Part shown: one piece after another, positions 55,762-60,328 of the stretch
Numbering within the stretch: position 1 is the stretch's first letter
How the letters are laid out: every line of letters begins with the position of its first letter
NCBI GenBank assembly: GCA_024637145.1
Contig: JAGXFQ010000013.1
Coordinates: forward strand, 1-60,328
Direction of reading: 5' to 3'
DNA: 60,328 nucleotides
Source: Desulfobulbaceae bacterium
GTDB taxonomy: Bacteria; Desulfobacterota; Desulfobulbia; Desulfobulbales; SURF-16
Program-made: the position numbers and the translations under genes
Notes under the pieces: generated by a model
The model's input: only the letters and a program-made list of their open reading frames with translations
Told to the model about the DNA's origin: nothing
The model's database searches: none

Positions 55762-56772
55762 ATGTCATTTATTGATGAAGCAAAGTTCTTTGTCAAGGCC
55801 GGTGACGGCGGTCGGGGCTGTGTCAGTTTTCGGCGGGAGAAGTATGTCCCCCGGGGCGGCCCTGACGGCGGCGACGGCGGCCGGGGGGGCTCTGTCTATA
55901 TCGAGGCATCCCCTCGTCTGCAATCGCTCATAGATTTCAAGTATCGTTCCCATTTCATCGCCAAAAGCGGTGCCCATGGCAAGGGCAAAAAAATGCACGG
56001 CCAGCGGGGCAAGGACTGCGTTATTGAGGTCCCCCTGGGCTCTCTGGTCAAGGATGCCGAGACCGGCGAGGTCATTGTTGATCTTGTGGAAGAGGGTCAG
56101 CGCTATCTGGCGGCCCGCGGCGGTCTGGGCGGCCGCGGCAATGTCCATTTTGCCTCAGCCACCAACCGGGCGCCCCGCATAGCAGATAAGGGCATGCCCG
56201 GCGAAGAGCGTTGGCTGCGTATTGAGCTGAAGCTCATTGCCGACGTCGGCCTCATCGGTCTGCCCAATGCCGGCAAGTCAACCCTGCTTTCCCGTCTCTC
56301 TGCAGCCAACCCTAAAGTGGCGCCCTATCCCTTTACCACCCTCGACCCTCAGCTCGGGGTGGTTAATTTCGAATATGGCGAATCCTGTATCCTTGCCGAT
56401 ATCCCCGGTCTTATCGAGGGGGCTCATGCCGGTGCCGGCCTGGGCCATAAATTCCTGCGTCATGTTGAACGGACCCGGATTCTGCTCCATGTCCTTGATG
56501 CCACGGGCATGGAGGCTGATCCCTGGCACCAGTACCAGGTTCTGGAGAATGAGCTTGCCCAGTTCAACGCCGAATTAATCGACAGAAAACGGCTGGTCCT
56601 GCTCAACAAGACAGATCTGATGAGCCCGGAATATGTAGCGCAGGTGACGGCCCGTTTCCAGGAGGCCCAAATCCCGCATCTGGTTATCTCCGCGGAAACC
56701 GGGGCAGGTCTTGATGCCTTGAAGGAGTGGCTGGCGGAAATTCTCTTTGAGGGTGAAGAAGGGCATGCCTGA
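55762..56772 (+). CDS. obgE: GTPase ObgE/CgtA
   Basis: A 336-residue Obg GTPase of ribosome assembly. The glycine-rich N-terminal Obg fold (FVKAGDGGRGCVSFRREKYVP in part, GGPDGGDGGRGG) is followed by the G domain: GLPNAGKSTLLSRLS, YPFTTLDPQLGVV, DIPGLIEGAHAGAGLGHKFL (in part) and NKTDL. No extended C-terminal OCT domain is present. It overlaps proB by 8 bp. Confidence 0.98.
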   Translation: MSFIDEAKFFVKAGDGGRGCVSFRREKYVPRGGPDGGDGGRGGSVYIEASPRLQSLIDFKYRSHFIAKSGAHGKGKKMHGQRGKDCVIEVPLGSLVKDAETGEVIVDLVEEGQRYLAARGGLGGRGNVHFASATNRAPRIADKGMPGEERWLRIELKLIADVGLIGLPNAGKSTLLSRLSAANPKVAPYPFTTLDPQLGVVNFEYGESCILADIPGLIEGAHAGAGLGHKFLRHVERTRILLHVLDATGMEADPWHQYQVLENELAQFNAELIDRKRLVLLNKTDLMSPEYVAQVTARFQEAQIPHLVISAETGAGLDALKEWLAEILFEGEEGHA

Positions 56773-57925
56773 GCGTATCACCGCGGAAGAAGGAAGGAAA
56801 CTGCGCCTGGCCCATCTCAAGGGTATCAAGCGGGTGGTGGTGAAGGTGGGCAGCGCCGTTTTAACCGGGGACGCGGGTCTCCATCCCGAGACCATGGAAA
56901 ATCTGGCCGATGAGCTTGCCTTTTTGCGGGAGAGCGGCCGGGAGGTCATTCTGGTCAGCTCGGGGGCCGTGGCCGTGGGACGCCGCAAGCTCTGCATTAT
57001 CCAGCCGGTCTTGTCTCTGAAGGAGAAGCAGGCCACCGCTGCTGTGGGCCAGTGCGGACTCATGCATTATTATGACTCCCTCTTTGCCAGGCGCAACCTC
57101 CGGGTGGCCCAGGTGCTTCTCACCCATTCGGATCTGGCCCATCGCGGCCGTTATCTCAATATCAAAAATACCATGGCCACCCTCTTTGAGTGGGGGGTCC
57201 TTCCCATTATCAATGAGAATGACACGGTGAGTGCCGAGGAGCTGCAGTTCGGGGATAATGATACCCTGGCGGCCCTGGTCACCAATCTCATTGATGCGGA
57301 TATCTTTATCTGTCTCACCGATGTGGACAGTCTCTACACCGCCAATCCCACCACCGACCCTGCGGCCACCCCGGTCCATACCGTTGCCGCCATCACCGAC
57401 AAGGTCATTAATATGGCCGGCAATTCCGGCTCCATGCTGGGCACCGGCGGCATGCACAGCAAGATCCGGGCGGCCCAGATGGTGGCTGCCGGGGGCGGCT
57501 ACTCCTTTATCGGCCCGGGCCGCCGGCCAGGGGTGATTCAGTCCCTCTTCAAGGGCGAGCTGGTGGGCACCTTTTTCCTGCCCCAGGCGGAGAAAGAGAA
57601 ACTCCATTCCCGCAAACACTGGATCGCCTACGTGCTGCGTCCCAAGGGCTACCTCGTCCTGGATGACGGCGCCTGTCGGGCCCTGGCCCGCCAGGGCTCC
57701 AGTCTTCTGCCCTCCGGCATCCTGGAGGTGCGCGGCGATTTTGCAGCCGGTGACCCCGTCCATTGCCTGAACAGGGAGGGCCGGGCCGTGGCAGCCGGTC
57801 TGATTAATTACCCCAAGGCAGAGGTGGAGAAGATCTGCGGTCATCACAGTTCCCAGATCCCTGAAATCCTCGGCTACCAAGGGGATGACGAGGTCATCCA
57901 CCGTGACAATCTGGTGAAGTTGTAA
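56765..57925 (+). CDS. proB: Glutamate 5-kinase ProB with PUA domain
   Basis: A 386-residue enzyme for the first step of proline synthesis. The kinase domain (about 20-270) shows VVVKVGSAVLT, VILVSSGAVAVGRRKL, INENDTVSAEELQFGDNDTLAALV (in part) and the GTGGMHSKIRAAQ phosphate-binding loop. The C-terminal PUA domain covers about 290-370 (GSSLLPSGILEVRGDF). Start at 56,765, overlapping the end of obgE. The obgE-proB linkage is common. It is the last housekeeping gene before the accessory region. Confidence 0.97.
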   Translation: MPERITAEEGRKLRLAHLKGIKRVVVKVGSAVLTGDAGLHPETMENLADELAFLRESGREVILVSSGAVAVGRRKLCIIQPVLSLKEKQATAAVGQCGLMHYYDSLFARRNLRVAQVLLTHSDLAHRGRYLNIKNTMATLFEWGVLPIINENDTVSAEELQFGDNDTLAALVTNLIDADIFICLTDVDSLYTANPTTDPAATPVHTVAAITDKVINMAGNSGSMLGTGGMHSKIRAAQMVAAGGGYSFIGPGRRPGVIQSLFKGELVGTFFLPQAEKEKLHSRKHWIAYVLRPKGYLVLDDGACRALARQGSSLLPSGILEVRGDFAAGDPVHCLNREGRAVAAGLINYPKAEVEKICGHHSSQIPEILGYQGDDEVIHRDNLVKL

Positions 57926-57943
57926 GGGCTTTGCCGTCCAGAT

Positions 57944-57988
57944 CAGGCCAGTCGTCTCCCTCCCCTGCAGAGGGAGGCGTGTGGCCTG
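57944..57988 (+). terminator. Large hairpin after proB, possible terminator
   Basis: An outer stem CAGGCCA/TGGCCTG and an inner stem CGTCTCCCTC/GAGGGAGGCG (one wobble) form a strong hairpin 18 bp after the proB stop. No T run follows (GGGTAAAAAA), so Rho-independent termination is uncertain. Confidence 0.5.
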
Positions 57989-58184
57989 GGTAAAAAACTG
58001 GTTCTCTTCCAAGAGCTGCTACCCGCAAATCCTGCGGACGAGTCTCTTTCAAAATATATTCGTAAATCAGCGGCGCGGGGAAGCTCTCCAAAAACCGTTT
58101 ATTCGTCCTGCTTGGCAGGATATGCAGAAAAGCAATCCCGTCTCAAAAAATCGGTTGTCCGGATATTCTTTGCGCAGTATCTTT

Positions 58185-58310
58185 GCGTAACAAGGCTGAT
58201 AGGCACCCCGCATAAACGCCATATTTCACCTGTCGGTCAAGCAAACCAACCATATTGCCCACTCGGGTTCTGCAGGGTGATACACAGACCTATAGAATTA
58301 CTTGTTAGAT
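58185..58310 (+). repeat. Probable integron attC-like site (126 bp)
   Basis: Imperfect palindrome: TAACAAG (58,188) complements CTTGTTA (58,301). TAGG pairs with CCTA, and CACCCCGCA with TGCAGGGTG (one wobble). The right end is GTTAGAT, matching the GTTRRRY core-site consensus; the left end GCGTAAC deviates from RYYYAAC at one base. Its length is in the range of the long VCR-type attC sites. It ends 45 bp before the HNH gene start, as expected at a cassette junction. Confidence 0.5.
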
Positions 58311-58355
58311 TTTAAAGCACCCTAGCTCTATCAAAAGACAAAGGACTTAGAGAAA

Positions 58356-59510
58356 TTGCCAAACTGTCTTTATTGCAATAATGATAAGCCAGCCGATGAG
58401 TTTACTTTGGAGCATGTAATTCCGCAGTTTCTTGGAGGAGCGCAAGCACCAGATGAACTAAAAACAAGGAGAGTATGCAAGACTTGTAACAGCAATCTAG
58501 GATTGTTTGTAGATGCAGGTTTTGAGAAGGATTTTCTTGTTTTTAATCAGTTGAATGAGGCTGCATATGCCTTTTTTAATCCAGACGAACCTTCTTCACT
58601 TCCATTGCACAACATGGGCATTTCTGACCTTACCCCACCTGGAATGAAAGAAGATGAGGTGTGTGAGTACTGGTTAGGCCCTCTCGGTGAACAAATTATT
58701 TGGATACGACCATCTGATGAGCGCATGTATTGGTATTCAGGAGGAAACCCAAGGACGGTAAAGAAAGTCAGAACTAGAGCATATTTTCTTTGGGCAGAAC
58801 GTTCGCAGAAAAACCCAATAATCACTTGGCTTGCTTTTCGAGACGCATTTTTAGGTCGAAAAGTAAAGAAGCTTATGTGCACTAAGTTAGATGGTGCTGA
58901 TCCGAAATATATCGGTTTTTCTGAGCCTGATGAATTAGATAATGAGCGTATTGAATATTTCAAAAAGGAATGCAGCAATGGCGAAGAAAGAAAAAACAAG
59001 CTGTCAATGTACGTTCGTTACGATATCCGCTTTATGGCAAAACTTGCAATCGGTTTAAGTCACGTAATATTTGGGAGTACTATAGAAAAAAGTCATTATT
59101 CTAATGCGTTGCGTCAAGCCCTGTGGTTCAGAGAGGGAGATTCAGAGCCTACAATTGAGGGGCAAAGTAACCTTGGTGAACAGGATCAATTTCTGAAAGA
59201 GCAATGCGGTGTCTCTAATGGTGTGACTGTCACTATATTGCCAGTTTCAACTGGTGTTGCTGTTAATTTGAACCTTAACAAAAAAATGAACTGGGTCGTG
59301 AATTGCGCAAAGATTGATGAAGTAAGTGATCAAATAACCAGCGAATTGTCCCATGGTATATGTGTGATTTTATATAGGTCATTAAACAAAGGGATAAAAT
59401 TAAGTCTGCCTGAGTTAATTGCACATAATCAGGGAAGCATCATCCATCAAGAGCTAGCTGAAGTTGAAAAATTAGCAGGGCTAAATGAAGGCTATTTTGC
59501 AAATTTATAG
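58356..59510 (+). CDS. HNH-endonuclease-like protein encoded in a probable gene cassette
   Basis: A 384-residue protein. The N-terminal 50 residues form an HNH_5-like zinc-supported nuclease motif: C4-x2-C7, then E19-H20 in LEHVIPQFLGG, then C41-x2-C44-N45. The remaining 330 residues have no family I recognise; they are mixed helical and strand with aromatic clusters and no membrane segment. It starts with TTG at 58,356 and is markedly AT-richer than its neighbours. It is bracketed by attC-like sites with its stop ten bases before the right one, so it looks like a horizontally acquired cassette. A role as a DNA nuclease, perhaps in defence, is inference. Confidence 0.8.
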   Translation: MPNCLYCNNDKPADEFTLEHVIPQFLGGAQAPDELKTRRVCKTCNSNLGLFVDAGFEKDFLVFNQLNEAAYAFFNPDEPSSLPLHNMGISDLTPPGMKEDEVCEYWLGPLGEQIIWIRPSDERMYWYSGGNPRTVKKVRTRAYFLWAERSQKNPIITWLAFRDAFLGRKVKKLMCTKLDGADPKYIGFSEPDELDNERIEYFKKECSNGEERKNKLSMYVRYDIRFMAKLAIGLSHVIFGSTIEKSHYSNALRQALWFREGDSEPTIEGQSNLGEQDQFLKEQCGVSNGVTVTILPVSTGVAVNLNLNKKMNWVVNCAKIDEVSDQITSELSHGICVILYRSLNKGIKLSLPELIAHNQGSIIHQELAEVEKLAGLNEGYFANL

Positions 59511-59519
59511 AACAAAAGA

Positions 59520-59594
59520 ACCTAACAAACGCATAAGCGCGGACAATTTGCTACGCTGCGCTTCGCAAATTTCCGGTTATGCGAAGCGTTGGGC
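59520..59594 (+). repeat. Integron attC recombination site (75 bp)
   Basis: Core sites at both ends match consensus: ACCTAAC (59,520-59,526; RYYYAAC) and GTTGGGC (59,588-59,594; GTTRRRY). Inside, CGCATAA and TTATGCG form the paired L boxes. The central stem CGGA-C-AATTTGC / GCAAATT-TCCG shows an extrahelical base, the feature that orients strand choice in attC recombination. It sits directly between two genes, 9 bp after one stop and 17 bp before the next start. Confidence 0.85.
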
Positions 59595-59611
59595 GTCAGG
59601 AATTCACCGCT

Positions 59612-60061
59612 ATGCCTACTCCAGCTGAGTTCATCGTTTTTGCCGTACAGCAGGCCCGAGAAGCAGAACGGTTTGGCTTTTCTCGCAACGAGTGTTGCAG
59701 GAACCTTAAAACCGCGTTGCACCAACACTGGCAAAACAAAACGATGGGACTGCACGGTCAGAGCCGAAAACATGAAATCCCGAGATCAAAGGCCGCTAAA
59801 GACCTGACATTGCGAGAATGCGAAGTCGAGCATGCTGTGCCACAGATGGAAATTGTAAACTGGCTTATGGACATAAACCCCCTAACTCCAGAAGCTGTCG
59901 TCGCACTTCTAGAGAAATATTTTCGAGTGATGCTGGTTACCAAAGAAGAGCACGCGCGGCTCAATGCAAGCGGAATGAGATCAAAGATGCCAAAAGATTG
60001 GGATCGCTCGGACGTATTTGCAAGATACCGATTGGTAGGCATCGAATTGATTGCTGGGTAG
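59612..60061 (+). CDS. Cassette-like gene, unknown function
   Basis: A 149-residue soluble protein. The N-terminal half is helical (AEFIVFAVQQAREAERFGFS). The C-terminal half carries CEVEHAVPQMEIVNWLM (E73-H74) and VTKEEHARLNASG (H114), then MPKDWDRSDVFARY. The EH...P and later EH pairs recall a cysteine-free beta-beta-alpha/HNH-like metal site, but this is a guess. The ATG at 59,612 is 17 bp after the attC site, a typical cassette position; an in-frame ATG at 59,579 lies inside the attC. No following attC is visible, so the cassette may be truncated or the array interrupted. Confidence 0.6.
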   Translation: MPTPAEFIVFAVQQAREAERFGFSRNECCRNLKTALHQHWQNKTMGLHGQSRKHEIPRSKAAKDLTLRECEVEHAVPQMEIVNWLMDINPLTPEAVVALLEKYFRVMLVTKEEHARLNASGMRSKMPKDWDRSDVFARYRLVGIELIAG

Positions 60062-60142
60062 GAGATGGGGACGTCCATAAGATTATAAGTTTCTCAAACT
60101 AGAGGCAGATTTTTATGATTTTATCAGAGTTCCGAGAGTTCC

Positions 60143-60184
60143 GGACACGAGTTCCGGGGACACGGACACGAGTTCCGGGGACAC
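60143..60184. repeat. 21-bp tandem repeat with TTCCGGGGACAC core
   Basis: Two perfect copies of GGACACGAGTTCCGGGGACAC lie head to tail (60,143-60,163 and 60,164-60,184), preceded by partial copies (AGAGTTCCG, GAGTTCCGG) and followed by CATAG. The TTCCGGGGACACCAT string resembles sequences I recall flanking IS200-like/REP-associated transposase genes; that link is from memory, not tested. Confidence 0.8.
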
Positions 60185-60280
60185 CATAGAATGGCACTAG
60201 TTTAAGCCTTTTTCAGCCTAAAAATCAGCTGAAAATATCAGCTGGAATTAGTATATTTCTGCATGAAAAACATGCGGAAA

Positions 60281-60328
60281 TCATTGCCAATGCTCCCAGG
60301 GTTTCACCTGCGGGCCAGGCGTCGAAAA
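60281..60328 (-). CDS. Possible C-terminal end of an open frame cut by the window edge
   Basis: On the minus strand, 15 codons run from the window edge to a TGA at 60,281, ending in KPWEHWQ. Given the adjacent repeats, it could be the tail of a transposase, but too little is visible to call a family. A GCATG-AAAAA-CATGC hairpin follows it. Confidence 0.2.
   Translation of the reverse strand, partial: FSTPGPQVKPWEHWQ

Follow-up and report, generated by a model that had tools for sequence, protein, structure and literature searches.

Positions 58,078–60,061 of the window (the whole contig JAGXFQ010000013.1 of a Desulfobulbaceae bacterium, assembly GCA_024637145.1, 60,328 bp, forward strand) hold an ordinary pair of gene cassettes behind an unusual integron attachment site, an attI that lacks an integrase gene and belongs to a family of such orphan sites spread over the order. 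From sequence comparisons we consider it probable that this attI is a copy left without its integrase after deletion of intI, with cassettes behind it, and that it would still accept cassettes when an integrase acts in trans. For the coordinates of all features see Table 1.

Table 1. Features of the cassette region and its surroundings, in positions of the window (a slash within a motif marks the crossover point).
Feature	Position	Strand	Remarks
proB (glutamate 5-kinase)	56765..57925	+	PF00696 and PF01472; gene left of the insertion
Orphan attI, no integrase gene	58078..58304	+	Assigned by homology to attI beside intact long intI; crossover G/TT between 58,304 and 58,305
attI core motif GATACACAG..CTATAGAATTACTTG/TT	58279..58306	+	Alignment A2 (11 sites); model R1, E 2.9e-11 at 58,262–58,310
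Gene cassette 1	58305..59588	+	From attI crossover to attC crossover; layout attI, gene, attC
Gene 1, HNH_5 endonuclease-like	58356..59510	+	384 aa; PF14279, 59.6 bits (cut-off 27.5)
attC	59520..59594	+	Score 20.5; cores ACCTAAC and GTTGGGC; crossover between 59,588 and 59,589
Gene cassette 2, start only	59589..60061	+	Position after attC; no further site above 11.5 before the contig end
Gene 2, unknown function	59612..60061	+	149 aa; 179 homologues besides itself (E≤1e-3), best 83%
Short palindromic repeat copy	60056..60124	.	Matches C12:79,780, 80,609 and 85,976 at 89–93%
Multicopy element end, contig stop	60172..60328	.	Copies on C35 and C39 near contig ends, 93–95%

The attC and the two genes on either side of it agree with the initial annotation. 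It had described a site with both core boxes and paired arms at 59,520–59,594, and this site stands well above the runner-up in the window (11.5). The scorer, our own and not the IntegronFinder covariance model, looks for the two cores and a paired inner stem and leaves the spacers free; it replaced cruder versions that had penalised unpaired spacers. At a threshold of 18 it reported no site in 276 Markov sequences (644 kb). As single-stranded DNA the site folds moderately well (bottom strand z = -1.94, 8 out of 200 shuffles as good; top strand z = -2.28) and folding does not distinguish the strands. The gene claimed in front of it was found with its stop codon nine bases ahead of the site, and the ATG of the second gene lies, as claimed, 17 bp past it. 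The drop in base composition is also clear: positions 58,307–59,588 have a GC content of 39.8%, whereas none of 567 segments of equal size from 1–57,925 was as low (minimum 47.8%).

A search with gene 1 at E≤1e-3 gave 284 homologues in addition to the gene itself, the best at 71%; those named among the best 120 of the 284 come from Shewanella, Vibrio, Acinetobacter and others. Gene 1 found no match at E≤1e-10 in the 394 other genomes of the phylum sample and no relative among viral contigs. For gene 2 there was no match at E≤1e-20 in the 256 other genomes of its class, no Pfam family over the cut-off and no match in plasmids. Neither gene gave a PADLOC match. Judged by these sequence searches, both genes are alien to the lineage.

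The attI was assigned by homology. In relatives, the sequence conserved at 58,078–58,304 lies between an intact long intI (open frames of ~450–570 aa) and the first cassette, and the homology to this spacer stops at the crossover. Within the genome studied here, 58,078–58,309 is 76% identical to two copies on contig C15. Its last ~35 bp come back in other genomes of the order: a search of 38 genomes at E≤0.01 gave matches in 9 (the own genome is one of these), some of them through different short segments of the query. In genome G025 the motif GATATACAGAAACAGTAGAATCACTTG/TTAT is found between a complete integron integrase of 500 aa and the immediately following gene. The window is itself one of the 11 rows from which model R1 was built, which qualifies its R1 match; independent support for its membership in the family comes from the DNA similarity and from its place in a group of four elements of genus g1 (tree support 81/66). 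The attI pattern occurred in no stretch of the IMG/VR viral contigs. Two candidates for further copies in the same genome were discarded by eye: the sequence preceding the first cassette in the C12 array does not resemble attI, and TTACTTGTTA at C23:97,909 is a chance match with nothing of the attI element around it.

The statement of the initial annotation that the cassettes have no integrase in view was borne out, as contig C24 (the window) gave no IntI match. No complete integrase was found in the assembly; the IntI matches of this genome are partial and lie on other contigs, the best covering positions 63–315 and 101–315 of 315. On the left of the window attI, an HMM of the long-IntI N-terminus scored -0.4 bits at best and revealed no recognisable integrase codons; remnants are present at 11 other sites of the family. 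A stub of the integrase gene had been read by eye in 58,034–58,091; this reading was dropped because the profile of the long-IntI N-terminus did not uphold it.

The window is one of 41 contigs of a 2.86-Mb assembly that is 86% complete; its start cuts a 5S rRNA gene (positions 1–87). A proB match was present in 36 of 38 genomes, own included. We examined 30 proB loci, among them three of congeners; the own locus and one short locus were left unscored. In all 28 loci of relatives with both genes found, proB and proA are adjacent with a gap of 16–373 bp, and 57,926–60,328 had no match at E≤1e-3 in any of 29 relatives' proB loci. The locus is thus not collinear with that of related genomes, an arrangement that would have spoken against inserted cassettes. 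In the own genome proA sits on another contig, 689 bp from the end of C1, and for this reason an insertion between proB and proA is likely, although the assembly does not close the gap. An integron continuing to the right, as also suggested at first, can be followed only to the contig end, 267 bp past gene 2, where C24 stops within a repeat that is also present near the ends of two other contigs. The C39 copy of this multicopy element carries an IS4-like transposase (PF01609, 24.5 bits, cut-off 23; PF13006 Nterm_IS4, 21.6 bits, below its cut-off of 25). A palindromic repeat of ~68 bp (GGGACGTCCATAAG... ...TTATGGACGTCCC) at the end of gene 2 has matches in the own genome only on C12 near an integron array. 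These copies lie 4–10 kb from a piece of intI, and one of them touches, by eye, the 3' half of an attC-like site.

Two readings of the region differ from ours in the nature of the site in front of gene 1. The palindrome at 58,185–58,310 had been taken for a further attC, which would place gene 1 in a chromosomal array between two attC sites. Its outer arms do complement each other over 7 bp (TAACAAG/CTTGTTA), and its GTTRRRY end is real and stands as the crossover between attI and cassette. Its identity as an attC did not survive: the part 58,244–58,310 scores 6.5, and 58,185–58,311 folds no better than its shuffles (z = -0.54 for the bottom and +0.36 for the top strand). Moreover, the stretch has homologues in intact integrons, where they form the spacer that separates intI from the first cassette, and an array between two attC sites is very improbable. 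By this homology the palindrome is the right part of the attI. Cassettes can also integrate at a chromosomal target that is not part of an integron (attG-type), and cassettes behind a housekeeping gene with the integrase absent would suit such an event. It would need no attI, whereas the cassette here follows an attI-type sequence of 227 bp, and this sequence is missing from the proB loci of the 29 relatives searched; integration of this type is hardly credible here.

In order to follow the attI through the order we used R1, a sequence-only model of alignment A2 with a shortened calibration. It matched 61 of 257 genomes at E≤1e-3, with 130 places in total and up to nine matches per genome. Of the 93 places that reached E≤5.2e-5 we inspected 92, usually together with at most 3.5 kb of sequence per side; they include the 11 model rows, and two of the 92 (in G171) are exact duplicates. 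The genomes are mostly drafts. An integrase gene is complete beside six of the 92 sites, interrupted by one in-frame stop near the N-terminus at one, large but broken at three and reduced to short remnants at 11 (two of them weak, one nearer the short integrase class). At the other 71, one of them the window site, no integrase is detectable, and 66 of these have at least 1.2 kb of sequence on the left. The profile for long integrases was made from the seven best long frames, which match it by construction. Among the sites counted as without integrase, S7 has a match of 8.1 bits (E 0.9) and S84 (G163:C28) an IntI frame of 496 aa 4.7 kb away on the cassette side. At least one of the 38 remaining places, G008:C168, adjoins an intI. 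Orphan attIs are common in the order.

At intact loci the integrase starts 208–230 bp left of the crossover and N-terminal remnants lie at 202–234 bp; the homology of the elements reaches a median of 216 bp leftward. On the other side, 253 of 264 left-flank alignments (at least 100 bp long and lying within 450 bp of the junction) end at most 6 bp from the crossover. Beyond it the right flanks of most site pairs have unrelated starts. Seven sites (S18, S22, S25, S32, S36, S59 and S71) share the start of the right flank over 42–218 bp with 80–96% identity, so the first cassettes are not always different. This shared start (TTCCCGGCGACTGCGTC...) lies at or close to the crossover across genera (genomes G015, G094, G029, G018 and G019) and also follows the first cassette at S15. 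At least 110 bp of the element are common to a further site for 54 of the 92 sites, in each case including one in a different genome; the other 38 include three with complete integrases, and the lack of such sharing is therefore in itself no sign of a false site. Of the 90 sites whose right flank is 150 bp or longer, 76 have an open reading frame of at least 80 aa that starts within 110 bp past the crossover, against 37 of 450 in a Markov control. Within 3 kb to the right of the attI sites we found 15 attC sites scoring at least 18 (215 kb; 13 of 92 loci), against one in 251 kb of left flanks. A laxer rule gave 25 sites at 20 of 92 loci, two in the left flanks and three in 716 kb of Markov sequence.

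In a tree of 53 rows and 225 columns the elements cluster by genus (14 changes against a shuffled mean of 29.1; 0 of 200 shuffles as low), and six sister pairs are copies within one genome. On one contig of G171, the surroundings of the sites L159 and L160 (C46:15345 and 147822) are identical over at least 6.8 kb, and the two copies lie at a distance of 132,477 bases. A second pair of attI matches in this genome has the same spacing. These repeated stretches are either a recent duplication or an assembly artefact.

Pairs of related loci indicate how an attI may lose its integrase gene. G208:C16 carries a long intI with one in-frame stop, and G206:C8 is 87% identical to it over 1,544 bp of left flank and 89% over 384 bp of attI. 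Of the 1.48-kb intI, only 31 bp are left between the aligned parts of G206:C8; codons from within the first 55 are kept and, judged by eye, so are the last ones. A complete intI is present at G220:C46; G219:C5 has no intI, shares its left flank (88% over 1,100 bp) and has the sister attI in the tree (100/100). Here we infer loss of intI as the direction of change. At G182:C86 and G023:C74 both ends of intI are matched and the middle is gone, with one end match weak in each. Decay of the integrase gene that leaves the attI behind is well supported by these comparisons.

Duplicated orphan attIs suggest that such sites exchange cassettes in trans. The C15 array of the own genome contains two copies of a unit made up of the 3' end of a gene (which we take to be larC), a spacer and an attI, with 465 of 486 positions identical. 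The identity ends at ACTTGTTA; beyond it the copies, larC1 and larC2, are followed by different genes (156 aa, no Pfam match; 179 aa, DUF4238 below its cut-off). The shared part already has no recognisable intI; therefore, the different cassettes came in later, unless the crossover was also where the duplication stopped. In both cases recombination at the orphan attI would be the simplest account. A second pair, G199:C297 and C347, is 93.6% identical over 767 bp ending 5 bp short of the crossover, with unrelated right flanks. Re-use of orphan attIs in trans would be a good reading of these pairs. More tentatively, the integrons of the Desulfobulbales may be of a distributed type, in which dispersed integrase-free attI sites multiply within genomes and capture cassettes through IntI acting in trans, one (or a transient) IntI serving many platforms; we hold this wider picture to be possible, not probable. 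The left ends of duplicated attIs (L196 on G199:C326, and C15 of the own genome) lie, by eye, beside short REP-like repeats (GGGGTCAG...), which may mark how attI copies multiply.

Based on these results we propose the following history for the window. An integron would have landed between proB and proA, and its integrase gene would have been lost there by deletion with the attI left over. This attI would then take up cassettes whenever an integrase comes in trans, as the duplicated orphan attIs suggest. Since no integrase codon remains at the window, we infer the loss in place, and a copy that arrived already without an integrase would be equally compatible with this absence. Such arrival is the core of a different account, in which attI and the first cassettes move as an integrase-less unit that landed after proB and never had an integrase there. 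Besides the missing codons in the window, it could draw on 25 elements of genera g55, g49, g47 and g41 that fall on one side of a branch (90/82) with no complete intI and remnants at four, on the six sister pairs within single genomes and on the 22 of 48 genomes that hold at least two of the 92 sites. We nevertheless think it unlikely: G206 represents a deletion in place with both gene ends kept, integrase remnants occur at 11 of the 92 sites (two weak), the left ends vary, and no terminal repeats or transposase delimit such a unit.

It is also conceivable, though not what we expect, that there was only decay of the integron and that the orphan attI no longer recombines. The absence of a complete intI from this assembly, 86% complete, would fit, as would the 14 of the 48 site-bearing genomes without a TIGR02249 match over the cut-off, by which many orphan attIs may be dead. 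The larC1/larC2 and G199 pairs argue against it, because they diverge from the crossover or 5 bp before it and their shared part is already integrase-less. A left-over attI that would still accept cassettes in trans accommodates these pairs, and we retain it for the window.

Several known arrangements are similar. A CALIN is a cluster of attC sites lacking an integron-integrase (IntegronFinder), and CALINs have been proposed to be degraded integrons (PMC9024848). The window resembles them in having cassettes and an attC with no integrase nearby. It differs in that the attI itself is preserved and traceable across an order, and in that our scorer finds one attC, compared with at least two in the IntegronFinder 2 default, on a contig that ends 267 bp past gene 2. 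With sedentary chromosomal integrons the region shares the attI, cassettes in the same orientation and an attC behind the first gene; here, however, no intI lies beside the attI and none is complete in the assembly. The delta-attI-type cassettes of mobile integrons contain misplaced, attI-derived sites that are recombination substrates of IntI1, according to PMC12901181, which also uses the term attG. These too are attI-derived sites outside their normal place. There a truncated attI closes the cassette instead of an attC, whereas here the attI precedes gene 1, the gene is followed by a normal attC and the integrase side is missing. Among the listed titles and abstract openings of the open-licence PMC literature on integrons, attI, CALIN, attG and IS91 we found no orphan attI families; one integron paper uses the term 'attI-like site' (PMC10127599).

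Cassette clusters without an integrase are common. Since attC sites are what identifies them, their formation and present function are hard to see. An attI family that can be traced makes this step directly visible, with the integrase gone and attI and cassettes kept. It also offers a route to finding such platforms by sequence and makes re-use in trans testable. An orphan attI is likely a docking site that outlives its enzyme and may still be reused.

The family also draws attention to the long integron integrases as a class with an apparent second core-binding domain. Three of them score 357.1 (G025:C1, L065), 381.6 (G029:C80, L075) and 342.9 bits (G020:C394, L067) with TIGR02249 (cut-off 265), and the nearest solved structure to L065 is the recombinase IntI4 (PDB-entry 2a3v, E 6e-71). 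All three (L065:814-2316, L067:1069-2436 and L075:1006-2451) have an N-terminal extension of ~145–190 aa. With the SAM-like core-binding family PF13495 (cut-off 27) the extension scores 36.2 bits in L067 and, below the cut-off, 23.1 in L065 and 18.6 in L075. Probably it is a duplicated core-binding domain.

At least two further integron integrases are represented in the own genome by pieces of intI (C12:75640-75828, C3:3677-4321, C22:7018-7776 and C13:216621-216914). On C12 the N-terminal part has cassette-like genes alongside and, by eye, looks like one half of a short-class intI whose C-terminal half is on C3. The start of an attC-like hairpin, AACGAA(C/T)AAGG... (a pattern that includes the AAC), was seen at seven places in several genera with different genes upstream: L028:1399-1461 (C15), L013:3635-3690 (C3), L209, L191, L055, L167 and L223. 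The base ahead of AAC is C or T in six of the seven and G on C3. The C3 copy lies inside an intI gene, ~270 bp from a Y2/IS91-type transposase that is preceded by a tyrosine recombinase. An IS91-like element ending in, or aiming at, the R'' boxes of attC sites would fit this arrangement.
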